Shown: piece after piece, positions 18,965 to 63,331 of the stretch
Position numbering within the stretch: position 1 is the first letter of the stretch
How the letters are laid out: the number at the start of each line of letters is the position of its first letter
Assembly (NCBI GenBank): GCA_944380285.1
Contig: CALWGZ010000001.1
Location: forward strand, 62,001 to 126,000
Direction of reading: 5' to 3'
DNA: 64,000 nt
Origin: an uncultured Christensenellaceae bacterium
Lineage (GTDB): Bacteria; Bacillota; Clostridia; Christensenellales; UBA3700
Notes under the pieces: model-generated
What the model was told of the DNA's origin: nothing
Databases searched by the model: none
Seen by the model: only the letters and a program-made list of their open reading frames with translations
Translations under genes and position numbers: made by a program

Positions 18965-19039
18965 GTCTTGCGGCGAAAAACATCGATATGTGCTTCAAAA
19001 CTGCGACCAAAACATTGCCAAACACAACCCGTATATTTT

Positions 19040-19227
19040 GTGAAATGAGCGTTCGCGGTGTTCACGCTCGTGAAATGACCGCGTTGCGGTCGTGAAATAG
19101 ACGCGCTGTGCGCGTCCGTGAAATAAAATTCGCCTCATCGTCGCGCAGCGACATTTCATGTTTGCGCACCGCGCAAACATTTCACTCCGCGCAGCGGAAT
19201 TTCACTCGCCGATAAGGCGAATTTCAC
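19040..19227. repeat. Mirrored array of micro-hairpins separated by GTGAAAT / ATTTCAC
   Basis: Non-coding. Four GTGAAAT boxes (19040, 19070, 19092, 19118) are followed by four inverse ATTTCAY boxes (19153, 19179, 19199, 19221). Between successive boxes lies a small hairpin with its own sequence: GAGCGT/ACGCTC, GACCGC/GCGGTC, GACGCG/CGCGTC, then GTCGC/GCGAC, TGTTTGCGC/GCGCAAACA, TCCGC/GCGGA and TCGCC/GGCGA. The boxes are constant, the stems all differ. The left and right halves can also pair through the boxes and through AAATTCGCC with its complement. Confidence 0.9.
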
Positions 19228-19229
19228 TG

Positions 19230-19261: not shown

Positions 19262-19263
19262 CC

Positions 19264-19335
19264 CCCGGTAACCGCACCAAAGCGAAAGAACGAGCCCAAC
19301 CGGCTCGTTTTTCGCCATTCAATCTCCGGGACTTG
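19264..19335. repeat. Outer, decayed copy of the tRNA-Leu tail/terminator palindrome
   Basis: Holds CCCGGTAACCGCACCA (19264-19279), the tRNA-Leu 3' end on the plus strand, then a terminator arm pair CGAGCC/GGCTCG and a truncated opposite copy ending CCGGGACTTG (19326-19335), identical to 19507-19516 in the tRNA T-arm. Confidence 0.85.
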
Positions 19336-19439
19336 CCTTACAGCGAGCGCCGTTAGGATATGCCGCGCCACGGCAGTGGCGCGGCACGCGAGCGTGCACC
19401 GGATAAACGGCCGAATTTTGCGAGGCCGTTATCCGGTGC
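19336..19439. mobile_element. tRNA-tail element, core (tRNA-Leu copy)
   Basis: 104 bases between two copies of the tRNA-tail palindrome. Order on the plus strand: a 22-base imperfect palindrome (CCTTACAGCG...CGCCGTTAGG, 19336-19357), an 8-bp hairpin GCCGCGCC/GGCGCGGC (19362-19385), ACGCGAGCGTGCACC (19386-19400) and a long hairpin 19395-19440. The first and third blocks are identical to those at 39438-39501 beside tRNA-Ser. No coding capacity. Classed as a mobile or amplifying element by inference. Confidence 0.75.
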
Positions 19440-19514
19440 AGTCCCGGTAACCGCACCAAAGCGAAAAACGAGCCCAACCGGCTCGTTTTTCGCTTTGGTG
19501 CGGTTACCGGGACT
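19440..19514. repeat. Perfect 35-bp inverted repeat including the tRNA-Leu 3' end
   Basis: 19440-19474 is the exact complement of 19480-19514, with a 5-base loop. The right arm includes the last 19 bases of tRNA-Leu (19496-19514); the inner part, GCGAAAAACGAGCC with its complement, serves as the tRNA terminator. Confidence 0.95.
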
Positions 19515-19578
19515 TGAACCCGGATGGTTGCCCATACGCCCCTCAAACGTACGCGTCTGCCTATTCCGCCATAACCGC
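19496..19578 (-). tRNA. tRNA-Leu (anticodon GAG)
   Basis: 83 bases including encoded CCA. Acceptor arms GCGGTTA / TAACCGC, T-arm CCGGGTTCAAGTCCCGG, a long variable arm as in class II tRNAs, anticodon loop TTGAGGG giving GAG. Its 3' end forms one arm of the 35-bp inverted repeat downstream. Confidence 0.95.
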
Positions 19579-39282: not shown

Positions 39283-39394
39283 ATGAATTACGCATATGCG
39301 CGGGTATCGGCAAAAGATAGAACTTGCAGCGGCAGATTGCCGCGTTTAGTGAGTTTGGCATTGAAAAAAAGCCGCATTTTCTCCGAGAAGAAAA
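39283..39394 (+). pseudogene. Truncated, frameshifted serine resolvase remnant
   Basis: Behind GGAAGGAG, MNYAYARVSAKD is the N-terminus of a resolvase/invertase (YARVS holding the catalytic Ser). A frame change then gives LQRQIAAFSEFGIEKK, and another returns to RIFSEKKSG, so at least two indels are present. The gene stops where the decayed tRNA-Ser terminator copy begins (39395), after roughly 45 of an expected 180-200 residues. Confidence 0.75.
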
Positions 39395-39437
39395 GCGGCA
39401 CAAGTCAGTGCCGCGTCAACAGATACGGAAGGATTCG
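39395..39437. repeat. Outer, decayed copy of the tRNA-Ser tail/terminator palindrome
   Basis: GCGGCAC-AAGTCA-GTGCCGC (39395-39414) is the tRNA-Ser terminator hairpin without its A/T tracts; GGAAGGATTCG (39427-39437) matches the tRNA T-arm GGAGGGATTCG at 39591-39601 with one change. Confidence 0.8.
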
Positions 39438-39533
39438 CCTTACAGCGAGCGCCGTTAGGGAATGGAGCGGAACTTCGTTACGCTCCACGCGAGCGTGCAC
39501 CCCGTGCATGATGTAATCATGACGGGTGTGCAC
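39438..39533. mobile_element. tRNA-tail element, core (tRNA-Ser copy)
   Basis: 96 bases with the same order as the tRNA-Leu copy: the identical 22-base block (39438-39459), a hairpin GGAGCG/CGCTCC (39464-39486), the identical ACGCGAGCGTGCACC (39487-39501) and a long hairpin 39495-39533 starting and ending GTGCAC. Hairpin stems differ from the Leu copy but occupy the same places. Non-coding; mobility is inferred. Confidence 0.75.
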
Positions 39534-39597
39534 TCCCTCCGCTTCCGCCAAAAAAGCGGCACAAGTCAGTGCCGCTTTTTTGGCGGAAGCGGAGGGA
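39534..39597. repeat. Perfect 29-bp inverted repeat including the tRNA-Ser 3' end
   Basis: 39534-39562 is the exact complement of 39569-39597, loop AAGTCA. The right arm contains the last 17 bases of tRNA-Ser (39581-39597); the inner AAAAAAGCGGCAC with its complement is the tRNA terminator. Confidence 0.95.
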
Positions 39598-39669
39598 TTC
39601 GAACCCCCGTGGGCTTTCACCCAAACGGTTTTCAAGACCGCCGCGTTATGACCACTTCGCTACGCTTCC
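39581..39669 (-). tRNA. tRNA-Ser (anticodon UGA)
   Basis: 89 bases including encoded CCA. Acceptor GGAAGCG / CGCTTCC, G discriminator, long variable arm (TTGGGTGAAAGCCCACG), T-arm GGGGGTTCGAATCCCTC, anticodon loop CTTGAAA giving TGA. Confidence 0.95.
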
Positions 39670-39952
39670 ACAATGTATTAAGTTTTTCTATGATTTCGTC
39701 GGTCTTTCGACCGTTTACGGTTTGACCCTCGCCGCGCAAAGCGCGCCTCGCTATTCCGTCGCTGCGCTCCTTACAAGACCGCCGCGTTATGACCACTTCG
39801 CTACGCTTCCAATTTTTATATTAAGTTTTTGTTTATATCCGGCGGTCTCTCAACCGTTTACGGTTTGACCCTCGCCGCGCAAAGCGCGCCTCGCTATTCC
39901 GTCACTGCGCTCCTTACAAGACTGCCGCGCAAGACCTGTTCGCTACGCTTCC
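39670..39952 (-). repeat. Two tandem 141-bp units carrying tRNA-Ser 5' halves
   Basis: On the minus strand, unit 1 begins at 39952 and unit 2 at 39810; the true tRNA begins at 39669, so the period is 141-142. Unit 2 repeats the first 37 tRNA bases exactly (39810-39774, ending GGCGGTCTTG in the anticodon loop); unit 1 repeats them with several changes. Each then runs into TAAGGAGCGCAG, GGAATAGCGAGGCGCG and the hairpin AACCGTAAACGGT in place of the tRNA 3' half, and a linker with AAAAACTTAAT. Confidence 0.9.
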
Positions 39953-39971
39953 GTATTGAGTTTGCTTTACG

Positions 39972-47205: not shown

Positions 47206-48120
47206 TTACAATAACTTCCCGAGCCTATTCATCATATCGGCTTTATGCTCCATCAGAGAATGAGCATAACGATTGAGCGTAATGGTCGGGTTTTTGTGTC
47301 CGAGGATCTCGGAAAGCGTTTTTACATCCATACCACACTCAATGGCACGGGTGGCGAAAGTATGCCGCAGGGAATGAAATCCTTTGTGCGGTATCTTCAG
47401 TTTTTTCAGGAGTAATTCAAAACTCCGCTGGTAGGAACGGACGGAAACGGGATTACCGCTCGCCGACACTACAAAGGGCGAAACGCTTCTCCTTTTCAAC
47501 GCTTTCATCATGGGCAGCAACTGTTTTGGCAATGGTATCATGCGTCGGGAAGTGGCGGTTTTCGGCTCGTCAATGATAAGTCCGTCTTTGCCGTCATGGC
47601 AGGACTTGGACACTGTCAGAACACCTTTCACGAAATCAATATCGCTCCATTGCAGGGCAATGAGTTCGCCAATACGCAAGCCGCTGTACAGACAGAGAAG
47701 AATGCCGTACAGTTTGTCTTTCTTGCCACTCAAAATGGCTTGCTCTATCCTCTTTTGTTCGGTGAGCGAAAAGCACTCCACCCGCTTTTCCATTAGTTTC
47801 GGGCGTTTGAGTTTGTCCGCCGTGTATTCTTTCGTCAGTCCCAAAAGGTGCGCTGTTTTGAGCGAACTTTGAATGACGGATATCACGGAGTTGACGCTGT
47901 TTGCAGCAAGTCCTTTACCCGTCTTTTTGTTGCCGCATTGCAAAAGCTCCGTTATGAACGATTGCAGGACAAGCGGGGATAAATCGTTCAACTCTATGCC
48001 GCCGACCTTGTCTTTGATGTGCTGCTCGACGATGAGCTTGTACCGCTCATAAGTCCGCACTTTCACGGACGGGCGGATATAGTTTTCTATCCATTGAACC
48101 AGCCAATCTATGTACTTCAT
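47206..48120 (-). CDS. Tyrosine recombinase/integrase
   Basis: 304 residues. N-terminal SAM-like core-binding domain (1-100) and catalytic domain with Arg in YSGLRIGELIAL, Lys in the beta turn (DEPKTATSRRMI), HSLRHTFAT (His-x-x-Arg), GHKNPTITLNRYAH (His and nucleophile Tyr). Mediates integration and excision of the element that carries the HUH protein upstream of it. No tRNA lies at its end, and an attachment site could not be recognised by eye. Confidence 0.95.
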   Translation of the reverse strand: MKYIDWLVQWIENYIRPSVKVRTYERYKLIVEQHIKDKVGGIELNDLSPLVLQSFITELLQCGNKKTGKGLAANSVNSVISVIQSSLKTAHLLGLTKEYTADKLKRPKLMEKRVECFSLTEQKRIEQAILSGKKDKLYGILLCLYSGLRIGELIALQWSDIDFVKGVLTVSKSCHDGKDGLIIDEPKTATSRRMIPLPKQLLPMMKALKRRSVSPFVVSASGNPVSVRSYQRSFELLLKKLKIPHKGFHSLRHTFATRAIECGMDVKTLSEILGHKNPTITLNRYAHSLMEHKADMMNRLGKLL

Positions 48121-48161
48121 ATTTCCTCCTGTGCAGTTGTTTTGTCAAATGGCAGTTAGGC

Positions 48162-48217
48162 ATGCGCTTGGCTATATACAAGTCGGCGGCGCACGGCGCC
48201 GCCGAAGCCAAGCGCAT
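48162..48217 (-). other. Origin-like hairpin with one-sided loop (copy 1)
   Basis: Outer 11-bp stem ATGCGCTTGGC/GCCAAGCGCAT, inner GC-rich stem CGGCGGC/GCCGCCG, and on one side an unpaired ACTTGTATATA (minus strand). It lies between the HUH protein and integrase genes. The same design occurs at 55273-55330. Confidence 0.6.
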
Positions 48218-48337
48218 CCTCGCAGATCGGAACGGGCGGAAGCATCTGCGGCGAACGGAGCGGAGTGTCGCCGCTTGACCGCTTGGCGAACACTTCCGCT
48301 AAACCGTTCCGCCGCATACGATGTCTTTCCGTCTCCG

Positions 48338-49387
48338 TCACCGATTGCTTTTCGGAAGTTGCGCTATGACTTCCAGTGCGACCTGCCCTATATATTCGCC
48401 GTCCATCCAACATCCGAAATCGTCCGCAAGGATGAATTTTCTGTCTTCAAGTCCATACGGGCATATAATATCATCGTCCATTACGTCCGTCACGAAATAT
48501 TGATACAAACCGCGGGAGTAGACGAGTTTTTCGCCCGTCTTTTCTATGTATTTGGTCAAATATTTTACCGCATGCGGCAGGTCGTCGGCTTGCACAGGCT
48601 TAAAGTCATTGCGTCCGAATTTCTTGCCGAAAAAGTCATTTTGCAAAGTGATCCTCATCTCCTTTGCTCGCGTATCATAATCGCGCACCTCGACATTATT
48701 GCCCGGCAATGCTCCATCGGGGATATGAAAGATGCCGTGAAAATGCAGCCGCTTCTTTTCGGGCGAGCGTTCCCATACGCCTATATATCTCCAACCTTTG
48801 CGCGAACTGAAATGCTGCAAGCATGTTTTGAGGGTTTTGCGAAAACTCTCTTCCGTATGCAACGCGTCCGAGTATGTAAACGTCACGAAGAAGTTGAACT
48901 GCTGTTGGTTTATCTTGCGCCACAATCTGACTTTGCGACAGATCATGTTCCTTTTCTTCCTTTCAAGGTTGCGTCCGACATATTCATCGCACTCGTTTTC
49001 CGTCTTAAAATACCGCCTCATCTCTCGAACGATATGCCTTCTGCGGTCTTCCGCACGCATCTTTGCGGTTGCGGCATAAAGGTCCTCGAACATTCCTTTA
49101 CGCGTCATGCGTCTCGGCTCTTGCGGCTTTTGCTCTTGCGAAAGAGTCTCCGCATCCTCGCAAGCGACCTCTTTTGCAATATTCTCTCCTTTACTTTCTT
49201 CGAGAACGGAGATCTCTTCCTCGGGGACTTGTCTTCGCTTTGCCGCAGCCGCATTCGTTGTGTGCGGTATCCCTATGTAATGACTTCCGTCCGAATATAC
49301 TTTTACTTTTTTGTATGGCATTTTTACCTCCTTAGAATCACTTTGCTTTTTCGCCTCTTCTTGGGCGATGAACTCCCTTGCCGACAT
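48338..49387 (-). CDS. HUH-type replication initiation protein
   Basis: 349 residues from MSAREFIAQEEAKKQ, after GGAGGAG. Residues 1-110 are charged and low in structure. The core has FFVTFTYSD (motif 1, about 167-174), the metal-binding KRLHFHGIFHI (His-Phe-His at about 215-217, motif 2) and DDLPHAVKYLTKYIEKTG with Tyr276 and Tyr280 (motif 3). This order is that of rolling-circle Rep/HUH endonucleases, which nick one strand at an origin hairpin. It probably drives replication or transfer of the integrative element. Confidence 0.8.
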   Translation of the reverse strand: MSAREFIAQEEAKKQSDSKEVKMPYKKVKVYSDGSHYIGIPHTTNAAAAKRRQVPEEEISVLEESKGENIAKEVACEDAETLSQEQKPQEPRRMTRKGMFEDLYAATAKMRAEDRRRHIVREMRRYFKTENECDEYVGRNLERKKRNMICRKVRLWRKINQQQFNFFVTFTYSDALHTEESFRKTLKTCLQHFSSRKGWRYIGVWERSPEKKRLHFHGIFHIPDGALPGNNVEVRDYDTRAKEMRITLQNDFFGKKFGRNDFKPVQADDLPHAVKYLTKYIEKTGEKLVYSRGLYQYFVTDVMDDDIICPYGLEDRKFILADDFGCWMDGEYIGQVALEVIAQLPKSNR

Positions 49388-49426
49388 ATCCGTCTCCTCC
49401 GTCCTGGCAAAAGACAATGCCACGCC

Positions 49427-49579
49427 TTACTTTCCTTTCTCAAAATATTCGTTCATCCTTTGAGCCAAAGAAGAGATGAAGATGTCATATTCCTCATCGG
49501 TCATATTGTCCGCATCGGGTTTCCCGTTGACATAGACCTTTATTCCGAGAGGAGCGTCTTTGACCTCTATCTCTTCCAA
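49427..49579 (-). CDS. Small acidic protein next to the HUH gene
   Basis: 50 residues from a TTG start at 49579 with GGAGG 6 bases before it: MEEIEVKDAPLGIKVYVNGK, PDADNMTDEEYDIFISSLAQ, RMNEYFEKGK. Start-stop spacing fits between the regulator and the HUH gene. Similar 40-60 residue acidic proteins often accompany integrative element genes; no function known. Confidence 0.6.
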   Translation of the reverse strand: MEEIEVKDAPLGIKVYVNGKPDADNMTDEEYDIFISSLAQRMNEYFEKGK

Positions 49580-49635
49580 TCCTGCCACCTCCTTGTTTTG
49601 ATTTTTGGGTATCTGTGTCTATTAAAACGCATCTG

Positions 49636-49941
49636 TCACTCTTTTCCGCACGTCTGGAATCTCTCTAACAAATACTCGATGAGCTGTCTGTTCTTGCTGC
49701 GGATATACTCCGTGCTGAACCCCATTTCCTCCGCACACACCTCTTGCGTTAGACCGCATACATGCAGCTTGTAATAGATCCGATACAGATCGAGCGGCGC
49801 TCCGCTTATCGCTTCCGCATACAGCTTTGCTAACCTCTCCGCCATATGCGGCAATAATTTGAACGCCTCATCGAATCGCTTCTTGTCCGAGTAATAAAGA
49901 CGTATCGTTTTGAGTTCGTTTCTCACTTCTTTGAGAGTCAT
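49636..49941 (-). CDS. HTH regulator of the integrative element (DUF1492-like)
   Basis: 101 residues from MTLKEVRNELKTIRLYYSDK, chosen from GGAGGTGA before the ATG. It ends IYYKLHVCGLTQEVCAEEMG, FSTEYIRSKNRQLIEYLLER, a sigma region 4-like helix-turn-helix. First gene of the run leading to the HUH protein and integrase. Confidence 0.65.
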   Translation of the reverse strand: MTLKEVRNELKTIRLYYSDKKRFDEAFKLLPHMAERLAKLYAEAISGAPLDLYRIYYKLHVCGLTQEVCAEEMGFSTEYIRSKNRQLIEYLLERFQTCGKE

Positions 49942-49995
49942 ATTGTTCACCTCCGGTTTGTTTTTTGCAAAACAAAACCGCGGCACGGACGACAA

Positions 49996-50573
49996 AAGAC
50001 TTTCATCCTCGTCGCCCGATAGCCACGGTCACCCGGTTTTTCGTCTTTGACTACTTCCGCTGGATTATTTCAACTATCGGCAAGCATTTCACCGTGTATA
50101 GGCGCCTTTCGGCTTACTTTGCCCTTTTATCATAGCCGCATGACAGACTTTTGTCCAATGGGTCTATAGTGGGCGCACGGTGGTAAAAAGCAAGATTACA
50201 ATGGGTACAGGGTGGTTGCAGAATGGGTATGCGGTGGATAAAGAGCGAAAATACCAAAACTTTGAGCCTTTCTCTTGATAAGGTCGAACGGGCTTTGAGT
50301 TCCGTCAAAAACACGTGATCGCTTTGCCGAAATTTTTAACAAACAACCGCCCCGTGCTCGCGTGCCCCTGTCTAAGGGAATACCTCTGACATATCTCGTC
50401 CGCCCGTCCCCGAGAATGTCGCTGAAAGGCACAAAGACCGTTTCGGTTCTCTCACTCTCCGCTACGCTCGGAGTTGGGGGTAGTTGGAATATTTTAACCC
50501 TTTTCCCTCTCTTCCGTTCCTGTCTTTTCCCCCTTTCGATTTGCTATACTCATCCAAAAACAAGGAGGTGCTT
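49996..50573. other. Regulatory stretch between divergent mobile-element genes
   Basis: No gene. It holds three direct repeats of AATGGGT followed by GGTGG: 50157-50183 (long spacer), 50200-50215 and 50222-50237, iteron-like. Further along are a short CTCCG/CGGAG hairpin near 50457 and a TATACT box about 30 bases before the recombinase start. Confidence 0.5.
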
Positions 50574-52136
50574 ATGAAAACAGCAATCATTTATGCAAGA
50601 TATTCAAGCGAACGTCAATCGGAGCAATCGATAGACGGACAATTGCGCGTTTGCAACGATTTCGCTCAACGCAATGGTCTGAAGATCGTCGGCACTTATA
50701 TCGATCGCGCCATGACCGGAACCAATGACCACAGAGCGGAATTCCAACGCATGCTATCCGACAGCGATACAACCAAAGAATGGGATATCGTTTTGGTCTA
50801 CGCTCTCGATAGATTCGGAAGAAATTCCATCGAGATCGCCATCAATAAGCAACGATTGAAGAAAAACGGCAAAATCCTGATCTCTGCCACACAGCGCACG
50901 TCTCAAAATATAGACGGTTCGCAAAATCTGGACGGCATAATCCTCGAAAACGTCATGATCGGCATTGCCGAATATTACTCTGCGGAATTATCTCAAAAAA
51001 TCAAACGCGGCCAGCACGAAAGCAGAGAAAAAGGCAACTTTGTCGGCGGTGGAATCGCTTATGGCTTCAAAGTCATAGACAAAAAAGTAGTCATAGAAGA
51101 AAACGAGGCGGGAGCGGTAAAACTCATCTTCGATCAATATGTCTCGGGAAAAATTGCGCGAGAGATAATAGATATGCTGCATCATAAAGGGCTCAGCCAT
51201 CGCGGTAAACCTTTCACTATGAATACGATATACCACATCTTGCGAAACACACGATACATCGGAATCTATTTTCACAACGGCACAATGTATACTAACACAT
51301 TCCCGCCATTCATTCCGGAATCGACATTCTATGCCGTCCAAACAATGCTCGCTAAAAACAAAATCGGTTCTCACAGCCGAAACACGACATATCTTTTGAA
51401 AGGAAAACTGTTTTGTGGAAATTGCGGCGCAAAGATGAATGGTGAAAGCGGCACTTCGTCTACGGGAAATGTCAATTACTATTATAAATGCGCAAGTCGA
51501 AAGAAAGACCGCAACGGCTGTCGCAAAAAATCCGTTCGAAAAGACGATATCGAAAACTTGGTGATACGCGCCTCGAAAGACCTATTCCACTCTTCAGAAC
51601 AAATAGATCGTATAGCAAGTTCGGTCTTTGAGATCCTACGCAAACAAATGCGGGATAAATCTATTATCAATCTCCTCAAAGATGATAGAACCCAAAAACA
51701 AAAAGCCCTTGCAAACTTGCTAAAAGCCGTAGAAGAAGGGCTGGCAACTTCCACCACGAAAAATCGTATGCTTGAACTCGAAGACGCCATCGACGAACTC
51801 GACAGAAAAATTCTCGAAGAAGAGTCAAAGGAAGATAACTTGATAACCAAAGACGCTATAGTCGACTTCCTGTCCGCTCTTCCCGAAAAAGACCCGCAAT
51901 TCATTATCGACACCGCAATCCGTAAAGTCGTGCTGTTCGACAACAAAATCGAAATCCACTACAACTTCATCACCCAGACAAACCCATCCGATCCCGACGG
52001 CTCTTCCCCCGAAGACTGCCGGGATAATTCTTTATCCGCAAAATCGAGTTTTTTATGTGTTGTTCCACCAATCGTAACCAAAATTGAACAAGTCAATTTT
52101 GGTTACTTTTTTATTGCGCGTTTTTGTGGTCAATGA
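50574..52136 (+). CDS. Large serine recombinase A
   Basis: 520 residues from MKTAIIYARYSSERQSEQS behind AAGGAGG. Resolvase catalytic domain (Ser in YARYSS, DRAMTGTNDHRAEFQRML, VYALDRFGRNS), recombinase domain (FVGGGIAYGFKVIDK, RNTRYIGIY) and zinc-ribbon domain (FCGNCGAKM...YYYKC, DRNGCRK), then coiled coil to about 450. It integrates and excises DNA without tRNA-type targets. The last 25 codons pass through a terminator-like hairpin (52075-52105), so the natural end was probably earlier. It meets the regulator gene of element B head-on, overlapping 7 bases. Confidence 0.93.
   Translation: MKTAIIYARYSSERQSEQSIDGQLRVCNDFAQRNGLKIVGTYIDRAMTGTNDHRAEFQRMLSDSDTTKEWDIVLVYALDRFGRNSIEIAINKQRLKKNGKILISATQRTSQNIDGSQNLDGIILENVMIGIAEYYSAELSQKIKRGQHESREKGNFVGGGIAYGFKVIDKKVVIEENEAGAVKLIFDQYVSGKIAREIIDMLHHKGLSHRGKPFTMNTIYHILRNTRYIGIYFHNGTMYTNTFPPFIPESTFYAVQTMLAKNKIGSHSRNTTYLLKGKLFCGNCGAKMNGESGTSSTGNVNYYYKCASRKKDRNGCRKKSVRKDDIENLVIRASKDLFHSSEQIDRIASSVFEILRKQMRDKSIINLLKDDRTQKQKALANLLKAVEEGLATSTTKNRMLELEDAIDELDRKILEEESKEDNLITKDAIVDFLSALPEKDPQFIIDTAIRKVVLFDNKIEIHYNFITQTNPSDPDGSSPEDCRDNSLSAKSSFLCVVPPIVTKIEQVNFGYFFIARFCGQ
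52075..52112 (+). terminator. Terminator-like hairpin at the end of recombinase A
   Basis: TAACCAAAATTGA / TCAATTTTGGTTA, loop ACAAG, then a T run. Preceded by TCCACCA. Located inside the last codons of the recombinase frame. Confidence 0.7.
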
Positions 52137-52777
52137 GACGCTATGGCAAGATATTTCTTTTGCATGTTTTGCCGTCTGCGCCACACCGTTGTATTGTCAA
52201 CGCACAAATTACGCGCTATACTGCAATAGGTCATTCCGGCAAGATAGCAGTCGAGCACTTGCTTTTCGCCTTTTGTGAGCCGCATTTGGCGCGTTATATC
52301 CTCTGCCTTGGCCTGTTTAGCGTCCATGTCGTCGATTGCTTCGATATGATATTCGTATTTTACGCAATCATCGAGCCTTGCTATATAGCTGTTTTCCGTT
52401 CGGAAATGTTTGAGGATATATCTGTCTGCGCACCTGAAACCTGCCTTTCCGAGGCTTATCTCATTTCCGTATTTATCCTTGCAAAGCGGACTTGCCAATG
52501 TTTTGCCTATATGCGGGCATAAGAACATCGCTACCGATTGCACGATATCGTAGCCGTCCGAGAAGATATGATCGGGATCGTTGTGGGGATGGTAGATATC
52601 GTATCGCAGACAATTGAACAATTTGTCCAATTTACCGCAAGAATATGCTCTTGCCGTTTTTAACGCCCTCAAAGCTATCTTTTCGCTGATAAGCAAGAGG
52701 TTTTTCTCGGTTATCGTGACATCGAAGAATTCTACGTCACCGAGAGTGTGCTTTTTGCTGCATTTCATCTTTTTCAT
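52130..52777 (-). CDS. Sigma-70 region 4-like HTH regulator (paralogue of 40543-41211)
   Basis: 215 residues from MKKMKCSKKHTLGDVEFFDV, start chosen from GGAGG. Shares the SDGYDIVQSVAMFL centre with the earlier regulator. The C-terminus LTKGEKQVLDCYLAGMTYCSIARNLCVDNTTVWRRRQNMQKKY is a helix-turn-helix. Downstream gene of element B, probably controlling its genes. Confidence 0.7.
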   Translation of the reverse strand: MKKMKCSKKHTLGDVEFFDVTITEKNLLLISEKIALRALKTARAYSCGKLDKLFNCLRYDIYHPHNDPDHIFSDGYDIVQSVAMFLCPHIGKTLASPLCKDKYGNEISLGKAGFRCADRYILKHFRTENSYIARLDDCVKYEYHIEAIDDMDAKQAKAEDITRQMRLTKGEKQVLDCYLAGMTYCSIARNLCVDNTTVWRRRQNMQKKYLAIASH

Positions 52778-52992
52778 TTGGTCAACCTCCGAAATTGTAT
52801 TTTGCCTTTTCGGCGCAGGCAACTTTGCACAGGCGGAATAAATCGCCACCGCCTTGATGTCTTTGCCGGAAGTCAACGGGCTCAAAAAATATTTGCATCA
52901 TAGTTGCTAAATGCGTATCGTAAGCAAATGTTTTTCCGTTTACTTCCGCAACGCCTGTGCGAAAATGCCAAAGCGAAAGGGCAAATTTCGGA

Positions 52993-54510
52993 TCATACGC
53001 TCATCTTGACAAGGATAGCTCTTTTGTCTGTCTGATATTGGGCAAACGCCGTAACGGAGATATATCGAAACTGTTCATAAAAACAATGATCCCGATTTTC
53101 GTCGGGACCATTCAAAGGGCTGTTGAATATTATTTCTATTTTGTCTTTGAAGACTATTATCTCTTTTACGAGGAAGTTGATCGCCAAAGCGATTTCCTGC
53201 TTGAGCGCCAAAGCGTAATATCGTCGTATTTCGTATTCGGTAAGCTTTATCTTTTCTCGGCTTTTCTCTATCGCTATCATTTCTTCACATTCACGTAGCT
53301 TGGTTTCGAGTTCGTGCAACCGTTTATTGGTCGTTTCGGATATTATTCCGCGCTCTATGGCGGATACTATATTGTCGAGCGCTGTTTGCGTTTTCTTTCT
53401 CTCCTTGATAAGCAAGCTCAACGCCGTGTTTTCTTTGGTCTGCCTGTCCTGCACTTGAAGCAACGTTTTTACAAGTCTGTCCAGCACTTCCGGCTTGCTC
53501 ATTTCGGATATAACGCATTCGGTGACGATATTTTCGAGATAATCTTTTCTCAAAGGGACGCTCGGACAACCGTTATGATCTTTCTTGACTCCGAGGCACT
53601 TGTAATATCTCATCACATTTCCTTTGCACGACGTGCCGGTCTCCGCGCTTATGGGTCTTCCGCAATATCCGCACTTCACTTTGTTTCGAAGCAGGTATAC
53701 TGCCTGAACGCTGCGCGAGCCGAGACTGTTTTTCTCTATCTTGGCGCGAGCTGCCTCGAACAGTTTTGCGTCGACTATCTTCGGGAAGATATTGTCGTAT
53801 CTTTCTCCCGCGATCTCACAGCTGCCGGTATATCTTTCGTTTCGCAAGATCCCGTATACCATATTGCTCGTAAACTTCTTGCCTCGATTGGTCAAGCCCT
53901 TGTCGTTGAGCGTCTTTACGATATCCGACACATACACCCCGGCATGATAGCGTTCGAAGATATACTTGACTACTTCCGCGTCGTCTTTGTCTATCCGAAA
54001 TCGTCTGTCCACGACTTTGTATCCGAACGGAACTTTACCTCCGCAAAACAATCCCTTGCTGCGACTCTCTTTCAAGCCTCTGCGTATCTTTTGCGAAAGC
54101 TCCGCCGAATAATATTCCGCAATTCCGATATAAACGTTTTCGAGCAAGATGCCGTCCAAGTTTTTCGTGCCGTCCAAGTTTTCGGACGTCCTTTGGGTGG
54201 CGGATATCAAGATCTTATTGTTGCTCTTCAATCTCTGCTTGTTGAGCGCAACTTCCACGGAATTCCTGCCGAATCTGTCTATCGCGTAGACAAGCACCAC
54301 TTCCCAAGTCGCGCTCGCGCTATCCGCAAGCATTCGTTGAAAAGCCGCGCGATTGTCGTTTGTCCCCGTCATTGCGCGGTCTATGTATGTGTCCACCACG
54401 ATGAGATCGTTGGCTTTGGCAAATTGATTGCACACATGCAGCTGTCCTTCGATGGACTGTTCTGTTTGACTTGCGCTGGAATATCTCGCATATATCACAG
54501 CAGTTTTCAT
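52993..54510 (-). CDS. Large serine recombinase B
   Basis: 505 residues from MKTAVIYARYSSASQTEQS. Same order as recombinase A: catalytic Ser in YARYSS, DRAMTGTNDNRAAFQRML, VYAIDRFGRNS; recombinase domain FCGGKVPFGYKVVDR and LRNERYTGS; zinc ribbon KCGYCGRPISAETGTSCKGN with YYKC and DHNGCPS; coiled coil 370-450. The two proteins are alike through the catalytic domain but differ in the DNA-recognition half, so they should use different sites. The small protein gene 54696-54827 lies upstream. Confidence 0.94.
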   Translation of the reverse strand: MKTAVIYARYSSASQTEQSIEGQLHVCNQFAKANDLIVVDTYIDRAMTGTNDNRAAFQRMLADSASATWEVVLVYAIDRFGRNSVEVALNKQRLKSNNKILISATQRTSENLDGTKNLDGILLENVYIGIAEYYSAELSQKIRRGLKESRSKGLFCGGKVPFGYKVVDRRFRIDKDDAEVVKYIFERYHAGVYVSDIVKTLNDKGLTNRGKKFTSNMVYGILRNERYTGSCEIAGERYDNIFPKIVDAKLFEAARAKIEKNSLGSRSVQAVYLLRNKVKCGYCGRPISAETGTSCKGNVMRYYKCLGVKKDHNGCPSVPLRKDYLENIVTECVISEMSKPEVLDRLVKTLLQVQDRQTKENTALSLLIKERKKTQTALDNIVSAIERGIISETTNKRLHELETKLRECEEMIAIEKSREKIKLTEYEIRRYYALALKQEIALAINFLVKEIIVFKDKIEIIFNSPLNGPDENRDHCFYEQFRYISVTAFAQYQTDKRAILVKMSV

Positions 54511-61672: not shown

Positions 61673-63331
61673 TCAGTCCAAAGTTGCGTCCTTATATGAA
61701 ATTTTTACGTCGCTTATTTCTATCTTTACGTCGTTATACGCCTGGTTCGCCTGAGAACCGAATTGCCAGACGAAATTGTTGAGTCTGTTGCCGCCCACGG
61801 AATTGCAGAAGAAAGTGTACACCTGCTCGTCTTCCGTGATAGTAAATCTCGACCATACCCATGTGGGATCCCAGCCGCCGTATAAGACTGCAGCGAAAAT
61901 GGTGACGACGGGTTTGCTCGCCTTGGCTTTGAACGTAACGACGTAATTTTCGCCGCTGCCGCCGACGTAAAACTCGGGTCCGATCACCTGCTGCTGCCAG
62001 TCGGTCGGAGCGAACGACGGGATCGTGTACGTAAAGCTTCCGCCGAACGTATGCAATTCCCCCTGATAGCCGTCTGCCTGCTTGGATACGAAATCCTTGA
62101 GCGTGATGACTTCCGTCTTGTTGCCGTCCGATTTCGCGACCACGCTGAGATCGGAAATCGTTATGTTGTTGACTTCATTGCCCGACTGCACGTATATCCA
62201 GAAAGCGCCCGCATTGTCGGCATCGGGAATAAACGTGCGCGACACGCGGCTTGCTGTAGTCGCGTCGCTTATAGCGAAAGTGTCATACCTGTTCTCACCC
62301 CATTGATCTCTTTTCAGGATAACCTCGAACGGCTTTGCCTCGCTGCTGACGATCGTGTACGACACGGTATATTCTACGCCCGCGGAAACCGTGAGACCCG
62401 TATCGATGAACATACCTCCGCGCCATATATCGACGTCGTGAGCCGAAGTGACTTCGAGAGTCGCCGCCTTTCCGTCTTCGGAAACCCACGCGTTGCCGTT
62501 CGTCCCGTCGAATCTGCCGTGAACTCTGCCCGCCAGAGAAAAGTTCTGCAAAATCTCTCCGTCTATGTTCTGCGCAAACGTATACTCCGCGCCGAGCAGA
62601 TAGAACTCGAATTCTTCAAGCGCGCCGAGAAGCACGGATATTTCGACCTCCGCGCTCTCACCTTTGTTTAAGGGCACGTATGAGAATTCGAGGACGTTTT
62701 CACCCTTGAATATCTCTTTTACCGCAAACGCGACACCGTCGGCAAGTATGTTGACCCTGCCGGCCTTGTTGCTGTAATAGCGGTAAGAAAATCTGTATTC
62801 TTCACCGCCGGTGAGCGTAAAATCTCTGCTGAGACTGACGTCCTCGGCAATCTCCGCTCCGCTCGCCTTTATGCGGTAAACGCCGTCGTACATACCGTTA
62901 TCTGTCAGAGCCGCGCCGCCCGACGTCGTGCATTTAAACCCGCTGACCTCGCTGAAATCCATATAGAGTTCTCTTTCGACAGCGCTTACGATAACGCTTT
63001 CGCTCGTACTTCTGCCCGTGCTGTCCGTTGCGGTATAGGTAACGCGGTAATTGCCTTCTTCGGGGAAAACGGCATATCCGTTGTCCCTTAACTCCGCCTC
63101 GGGGGTAATCGTGATCGCCATGTCGGGAGTGATGTCTCCGTCCTCGTCGTCGAGCGCAGCTACTCCGTCGAGAATATCCACGGGGGTATCGACGATGCAG
63201 TCGAAATCGTGCGCTCCGTCCACTTGCGGCGCAGCGTTTACCGTCTCCTCGTCGCAACCGATCAATACGAACGCGAGCAACAATGCCACAACCGTGATAA
63301 CTATCACGATTTTAATTGTGTTTTTCTTCAT
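61673..63331 (-). CDS. Surface lipoprotein with Ig-like and carbohydrate-binding modules
   Basis: 552 residues. Lipobox VLIGC (Cys26). An Ig-like domain (about 30-115) with the phrase NYRVTYTATDSTGRSTSESV (DUF5011/HYR-like), then two beta sandwiches, about 150-390 and 405-550, with NAWVSEDGKAATLEVTSAHDV, YTVSYTIVSS and FWIYVQSGNE, resembling CBM4/9-type modules that bind sugars. In this operon it most likely captures fructan at the cell surface; it has no catalytic motif. Starts six bases upstream of the GH32 gene's reading end. Confidence 0.75.
   Translation of the reverse strand: MKKNTIKIVIVITVVALLLAFVLIGCDEETVNAAPQVDGAHDFDCIVDTPVDILDGVAALDDEDGDITPDMAITITPEAELRDNGYAVFPEEGNYRVTYTATDSTGRSTSESVIVSAVERELYMDFSEVSGFKCTTSGGAALTDNGMYDGVYRIKASGAEIAEDVSLSRDFTLTGGEEYRFSYRYYSNKAGRVNILADGVAFAVKEIFKGENVLEFSYVPLNKGESAEVEISVLLGALEEFEFYLLGAEYTFAQNIDGEILQNFSLAGRVHGRFDGTNGNAWVSEDGKAATLEVTSAHDVDIWRGGMFIDTGLTVSAGVEYTVSYTIVSSEAKPFEVILKRDQWGENRYDTFAISDATTASRVSRTFIPDADNAGAFWIYVQSGNEVNNITISDLSVVAKSDGNKTEVITLKDFVSKQADGYQGELHTFGGSFTYTIPSFAPTDWQQQVIGPEFYVGGSGENYVVTFKAKASKPVVTIFAAVLYGGWDPTWVWSRFTITEDEQVYTFFCNSVGGNRLNNFVWQFGSQANQAYNDVKIEISDVKISYKDATLD

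Follow-up and report, generated by a model that had tools for sequence, protein, structure and literature searches.

Many tRNA genes of an uncultured Christensenellaceae bacterium, and its tmRNA gene, harbour short, gene-free units that are joined to the T-loop of the RNA gene and followed by a second copy of its last 20 nt (the tail). We consider it roughly an even bet (probability about 0.5) that these units are miniature, protein-free integrative elements that enter the T-loops of tRNA and tmRNA genes, are moved in trans, and have their inverted copy of the tail matched to the local gene by copying within a hairpin. This reading starts from the observed anatomy of the units, their junction, a pair of empty and filled sites, their spread over RNA genes and the identity of tail and inverted tail with the local gene.

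The window, i.e. the whole stretch of 64,000 nt analysed here (positions 62,001 to 126,000 of contig CALWGZ010000001.1, assembly GCA_944380285.1), contains one such array beside tRNA-Ser(UGA). On the minus strand its order is tRNA, terminator, inverted tail, core, right end, second tail and second terminator:

39581..39669 (minus): host RNA gene tRNA-Ser(UGA), called by ARAGORN and Rfam RF00005
39581..39600 (minus): functional 20-nt tail, from T-loop nt 57 to CCA, GAATCCCTCCGCTTCCGCCA
39550..39580 (minus): tRNA-proximal terminator hairpin GCGGCAC-TGACTT-GTGCCGC with A and T tracts (from inverted repeat and sequence)
39534..39550 (minus): inverted tail (S'), complementary to the final 17 nt of tRNA-Ser
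39502..39533 (minus): hairpin in which the T-stem 5' strand is present in inverted and in direct copy, CACACCCGTCATGAT..ATCATGCACGGGG (from sequence)
39486..39501 (minus): left conserved block of the core, GGTGCACGCTCGCGTG
39460..39485 (minus): core hairpin, in which compensatory changes in other copies keep the pairing
39437..39459 (minus): right end, short form, CCTAACGGCGCTCGCTGTAAGGC, abutting tail nt 57
39417..39436 (minus): second, decayed tail copy, GAATCCTTCCGTATCTGTTG, 13/20 identical and starting in the T-loop (nt 57)
39391..39414 (minus): second copy of the terminator hairpin, the distal end of the array (from direct repeat)

A first-pass annotation of this sequence had described a perfect 29-bp palindrome containing the last 17 bases of the tRNA, and it is indeed formed by terminator and inverted tail together (39534-39597; arms 39534-39562 and 39569-39597). 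What the same annotation took for a decayed palindrome on the far side of the core is real, but consists of a second copy of the tRNA 3' part followed by the terminator copy (39417-39436 and 39391-39414). The 20-nt tail unit is likewise duplicated in other arrays, and the hairpin layout of the T-stem 5' strand recurs in loci L224/L226 and at the tmRNA gene. Where the Ser array ends, there is the start of a small serine recombinase gene (39283-39400, plus strand; MNYAYARVSAKD..; Pfam Resolvase, E 0.005), which is frameshifted and truncated. On the other side of the tRNA (39670-39960), as in L227-L232, tandem extra tRNA-Ser 5' halves with a promoter are found, their anticodon loop interrupted by an antisense element with the long form of the right end (CTATTCCGTCGCTNCGCTCCTTAC); such 5'-half remnants stand upstream of tRNA-Ser throughout the genus. 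Those of the window are:

39775..39811 (minus): extra tRNA-Ser 5' half, nt 1 to the anticodon loop, where it joins a long-form right end (39751-39774, plus)
39917..39952 (minus): another 5'-half copy in a more decayed state, joined to a long-form right end (39894-39917, plus)

The second host gene in the window is a leucine tRNA, with the following features:

19496..19578 (minus): tRNA-Leu(GAG)
19440..19458 (minus): inverted tail of tRNA-Leu, within its perfect palindrome
19335..19400 (minus): core of the Leu copy, GGTGCACGCTCGCGTG..hairpin..CCTAACGGCGCTCGCTGTAAGGC
19262..19334 (minus): second Leu tail (AAGTCCCGG), terminator copy and decayed inverted tail

Two blocks had been said to be common to the Ser and Leu cores without a mismatch, and this is correct at lengths of 16 nt (GGTGCACGCTCGCGTG; 39486-39501 = 19385-19400) and 23 nt (CCTAACGGCGCTCGCTGTAAGGC; 39437-39459 = 19335-19357). 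The hairpins between them differ in sequence and keep their pairing, as had also been proposed: when six copies from this genome are compared, two-sided changes are seen at 6 of 11 pairs, a result reached in none of 500 shuffles. The sharing exceeds chance, since TAACGGCGCTCGCTGTAAGG, with up to 3 mismatches, has 4 matches in the 1.85-Mb genome, every one of them beside a tRNA, and the reversed control has 0; an exact 20-nt right-end block likewise occurs four times, at Leu-GAG, at Ser-UGA and twice beside Glu-CUC. When the core was compared with the curated Rfam 15 models, tRNA alone reached the gathering threshold in the window stretch. Directly past the Leu array (19038-19229) lie two convergent matches to Rfam Gut-1 (RF01706), made of TGAAAT-linked hairpins, and four further, weaker copies of this Gut-1-like repeat are present in the genome; Gut-1 RNA was rejected as a part of the Leu array, being a separate repeat.

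Placing the element at Ser and Leu tRNAs was right as far as it went, but the list was incomplete. The same core is found in this genome at Ser-UGA, Leu-GAG, Glu-CUC (units in tandem, 164 nt apart), Leu-CAG and the tmRNA gene, the last two with variants of the short-form right end and the tmRNA gene reading GACTCCCCTCAGCTCCACCA, insert, AACTCCCCTCAGCTCCACCA. The flanks of 46 tRNA matches in this genome were read for units, and related ones were identified at about ten further genes, namely those for Cys (three or more units in tandem), Trp, Arg-CCG, Leu-UAA, Leu-CAA and Ser-GGA, and also Gly-GCC, Lys-CUU, Tyr and probably Ser-CGA, where the core is of a different kind. Most of these related units end in the long-form right end, and tandem arrays occur beside Glu, Cys, Tyr, Lys, Trp and Leu-UAA. 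At the Val-CAC and Ser-GGA units of this genome (L022, L058) a homologous terminator stands directly after CCA. Other cores (..GGCTGTCCGC..GCAGCTTTCGCGAAG..GGAAGCGAA) are present in L015, L017, L021 and L233; their hosts are Gly, Lys, Tyr and Ser tRNAs, and the T-loop junction is unchanged.

In total, we collected 44 non-redundant units at 22 tRNA species, all gene-free and about 80-240 nt in size. In these units the tail copy starts at nt 57, with full 20/20 identity in 26 of the 44. The segment from CCA to the right end always contains a terminator-like hairpin and mostly the TGACGC.. hairpin core. The first-pass idea that the palindromes are specific to each tRNA holds where there is a match, but not throughout: the inverted tail beats 95% of foreign tails for the local match in 21 of 44 units (about 2 expected), and it is absent or unrecognisable in about a third. 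An independent test on 67 T-loop copies placed flank complementarity above the 95th percentile of re-dealt flanks in 18 (3 expected); the signal is significant at T-loops and weak at other targets. Inverted-tail regions at Ser-GGA and others are unmatched, so that matching is not universal, and the constant feature is the direct 20-nt tail copy from T-loop nt 57 rather than the palindrome.

The long-form right end, with one mismatch allowed, is present in 45 of 297 genomes of the order, at up to 37 copies per genome, and is identical in sequence across families, the reversed control giving no match in any of these genomes. Scanning of species genomes returned at least 118 stretches with this end, nearly all labelled as Clostridia-type assemblies (one listed stretch, L151, is labelled Corallococcus and is possibly a misnamed bin). 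None was found in 2.9 million viral contigs, and there was no copy in phage and plasmid records. Among 138 long-form copies (MAG assemblies break at arrays, and copies at contig ends were left out), 34 precede sequence that agrees with the tail of the tRNA immediately upstream at 13 or more of its 20 bases, 18 tRNA species being represented. About 23 more precede T-loop-like tails for which no tRNA gene was called at a distance of up to 1.2 kb, and about a dozen precede an antisense tRNA 5' half from the anticodon loop, the remainder lying inside other repeats. The nucleotide next after the right end is a purine in 167 of 169 copies. In L101, L113, L102, L144 and others the long-form right end lies inside intergenic palindromic repeats of the GTCATTCTGA.. 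and CCGTAGGG.. types, which carry no tail duplication and have lost TTC.

Copies outside T-loops would be expected if the mobile piece were the 50-100-nt core with its right end, a MITE targeting hairpin loops (T-loop, anticodon loop and the loops of intergenic repeats) and entering them at TTC^R, the tRNA being rescued by separate duplications of tail, terminator and inverted tail. This alternative is possible, if on the unlikely side. It would explain why core and long right end occur in the antisense tRNA-Ser anticodon loop and in other repeats, always before R, and it agrees with the core forming a hairpin in 71 of 169 copies (16 expected) and with the direct T-stem 5' strand that precedes the core in several units. 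However, complementarity of the flanks is weak outside T-loops, no transposase was found (Y1 is absent here, and its occurrence does not follow that of the copies), and terminator and core arrive together in the comparison that follows.

In eight relatives, tRNA-Ser-UGA is followed by a plain terminator and has no inverted tail; we refer to these as empty sites. Alignment within one genus pairs an empty Ser-UGA (L223) with a filled one (L221). In L221 the native terminator (CTCGCTACCCGA..AAAGGTAG) is displaced behind the second tail, where another insert interrupts it, and a different, new terminator directly follows CCA. The insert thus brings terminator and core together, with tail on both sides, which corrects the earlier notion that the element is a copied tail plus core alone. 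Across the terminator, inserts L128 (Ser-UGA) and L169 (Ser-CGA) have the same base at 83 of 84 positions, and nearly all of the core agrees as well; the differences fall mainly in the short inverted-tail region between terminator and core and in the tail. Leu-UAA and Leu-CAA of this genome form a like mosaic at lower similarity. These comparisons provide the strongest support for the first-pass claim of a local tail and inverted tail. The L128/L169 pair is also the clearest case for the first-pass argument that the element sits at unrelated RNA genes, always with their own tail, and that duplication of one locus is insufficient.

We further surveyed 450 nt downstream of each of 154 distinct tRNA genes for inverted tails of at least 11 exact nt and found them at 21 genes, counts that do not represent a random sample, many of the loci having been fetched for carrying the motif. 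A tail repeat was called at 11 of the 21; by eye, the other 10 (with L183 and L196 as no more than probable cases) carry units with a second tail that is decayed or belongs to another class, and 87 of the 154 have neither inverted tail nor tail repeat. Inverted tails without a core, which the first-pass annotation had named as evidence against its own proposal, were not encountered: all 21 genes have an insert as far as seen, and 0 of 8 empty tRNA-Ser sites has an inverted tail. A purely local rearrangement, with hairpin template switching yielding tail, inverted tail and tail and with cores spread by gene conversion, is quite improbable. Double template switching does predict the order tail-terminator-inverted tail-tail and the T-loop junction, and quasipalindrome correction is already known (PMC7202029), but the empty/filled comparison disfavours it, foreign terminators coming with the inserts; moreover, the same end recurs, identical across the families of the order, in 45 of 297 genomes, and uninserted tRNAs have no inverted tails.

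In the integrative reading that we favour, a unit would enter a tRNA or tmRNA gene within the T-loop, between C56 and R57, and deliver a hairpin core and right end along with a new terminator. Before this terminator the RNA gene would keep an intact 20-nt tail, so that the RNA would stay functional, the other tail copy coming to lie after the right end. Later units would enter on the RNA side and displace older ones outward, whose tail and terminator would decay. Integration would occur in trans, through a large serine recombinase specific for T-loops, such as same-site islands carry, and the inverted tail would be matched after entry by copying within the hairpin of the new terminator; template switching of this quasipalindrome type has been described for E. 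coli and yeast (PMC7202029, PMC3820800). That copying follows insertion is suggested by the empty sites, which have no inverted tail, and by the existence of all grades of match. Against this reading, the long-form end in tail-less repeats with loss of TTC is unpredicted by conservative recombination, and a recombinase by itself leaves the change of tail on moving between tRNAs unexplained; in addition, recombinase co-occurrence is weak and about a third of the units have no recognisable inverted tail. We think it unlikely that direct tail and matching inverted tail, the latter a guide-like segment between the element's own terminator and core, are instead acquired at entry, by a dedicated re-templating mechanism and not by later repair.

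By general analogy, the inverted tail is also reminiscent of a primer-binding site: it is 17-20 nt long and starts with TGG, its boundaries lie at CCA and the T-loop, and it is rewritten on a change of tRNA. A tRNA-primed, retroelement-like cycle, in which the primer-binding site would be rewritten from the tRNA 3' end and copying would stop at the T-loop, is nevertheless highly improbable. No reverse transcriptase (PF00078) is present in this 97%-complete genome and just 6 of 38 genomes have one, while units without an inverted tail and the anticodon-loop copies misfit such a cycle. Reverse transcriptase and Y1 transposase were both rejected as drivers, being absent here; for the same want of a Y1 transposase in this genome, an IS200/IS605 or REP-RAYT (Y1) element was set aside. 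Likeness to integron attC sites was rejected by eye, the junction having no GTTRRRY-type site.

Two genes of the window belong to one recombinase family that bears on movement in trans:

52993..54510 (minus): large serine recombinase (Pfam PF00239, PF07508, PF13408)
50574..52136 (plus): second large serine recombinase of the same family (Pfam domains)

The family of 52993..54510 is a candidate mobiliser, as its relatives end beside tRNA or tmRNA genes or units elsewhere. Both genes lie in a mobile region (47206-54510) that also encodes a tyrosine integrase and a Rep-like protein bearing an HFHG motif. Close relatives of these last two adjoin tRNA-tail arrays in L166/L296 and L190/L295. In L109, L118/L090/L293, L166/L296 and L284/L294, the end of a large serine recombinase gene is directly followed by core, right end and tail. 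The L294 locus contains an island of about 13.6 kb that carries type I restriction cargo and the serine recombinase gene; tRNA-Leu-CAG flanks it on one side and core, right end and tail on the other, and a small unit separates the recombinase from the last tail. Of 20 loci found via the recombinase alone, about 8 have a tRNA, tmRNA or right end no more than 700 nt from the 3' end, as against 0 of about 18 at the 5' end, and the tRNAs are convergent without exception. The first pass had proposed looking for a recombinase gene that co-occurs with the units; no strict co-occurrence was found. Relatives of the window serine recombinase occur in 12 of 18 copy-rich genomes and in 9 of 20 without copies (for the tyrosine integrase, 10 of 18 and 6 of 20), and the richest genome, with 37 copies, has no recombinase relative at E<1e-50. 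A search for a shared gene in the flanks of the 118 listed motif loci gave no recurrent gene other than common host genes, and serine recombinases in 3. The proposed link between serine recombinase and mini-units draws on shared site, shared junction and adjacency, genome co-occurrence being weak.

The closest parallel is provided by Dehalococcoides islands, which enter the T-loop of the tmRNA gene (ssrA), are bounded by 20-bp repeats of its 3' end, stand in tandem, have a 15-bp motif before each repeat and are integrated by the serine recombinase DsiB (PMC3146451). The present units share the T-loop site, the approximately 20-bp 3'-end repeat, the tandem order and a conserved motif immediately before the repeat (here the right ends CTATTCCGTCGCTNCGCTCCTTAC or CGCTGTAAGGC). 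Whereas DsiB islands are protein-coding and use one gene, the units are gene-free, about 80-240 nt long and found at 22 tRNA species and tmRNA; they additionally have a terminator and often an inverted tail, and do not encode the recombinase, although larger same-site islands with the gene exist. By this analogy the units may work like DsiB-type T-loop islands, a comparison that makes no claim as to the identity of the moving enzyme. No description of such mini-elements was found in the literature consulted.

Bacterial MITEs and other non-autonomous mini-elements are short, hairpin-rich, gene-free and multicopy, and presumably moved in trans. The units resemble them in all these respects, but differ in their fixed RNA-gene target, the lack of simple terminal inverted repeats, the preservation of the target part with its own terminator, and the tail-specific inner sequence. 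CRISPR-like polarised arrays grow at the leader side with repeat duplication; here, growth would be at the tRNA side and the tail is duplicated, but the arrays consist of related elements and not of sampled spacers.

Genes for tRNAs are classic landing sites of islands and phages, but entry into an essential tRNA of which there is a single copy requires that its 3' end be restored. The family illustrates how little may suffice, namely a gene-free unit that has a tail and a terminator and has spread over a large part of one genome's tRNA set and through an order of gut bacteria. If confirmed, matched, half-matched and unmatched inverted tails would offer a natural series for testing how a new target sequence is adopted; the units would break assemblies and mislead the annotation of tRNA flanks, and their insertion would drive the evolution of tRNA 3' ends and terminators in these bacteria.
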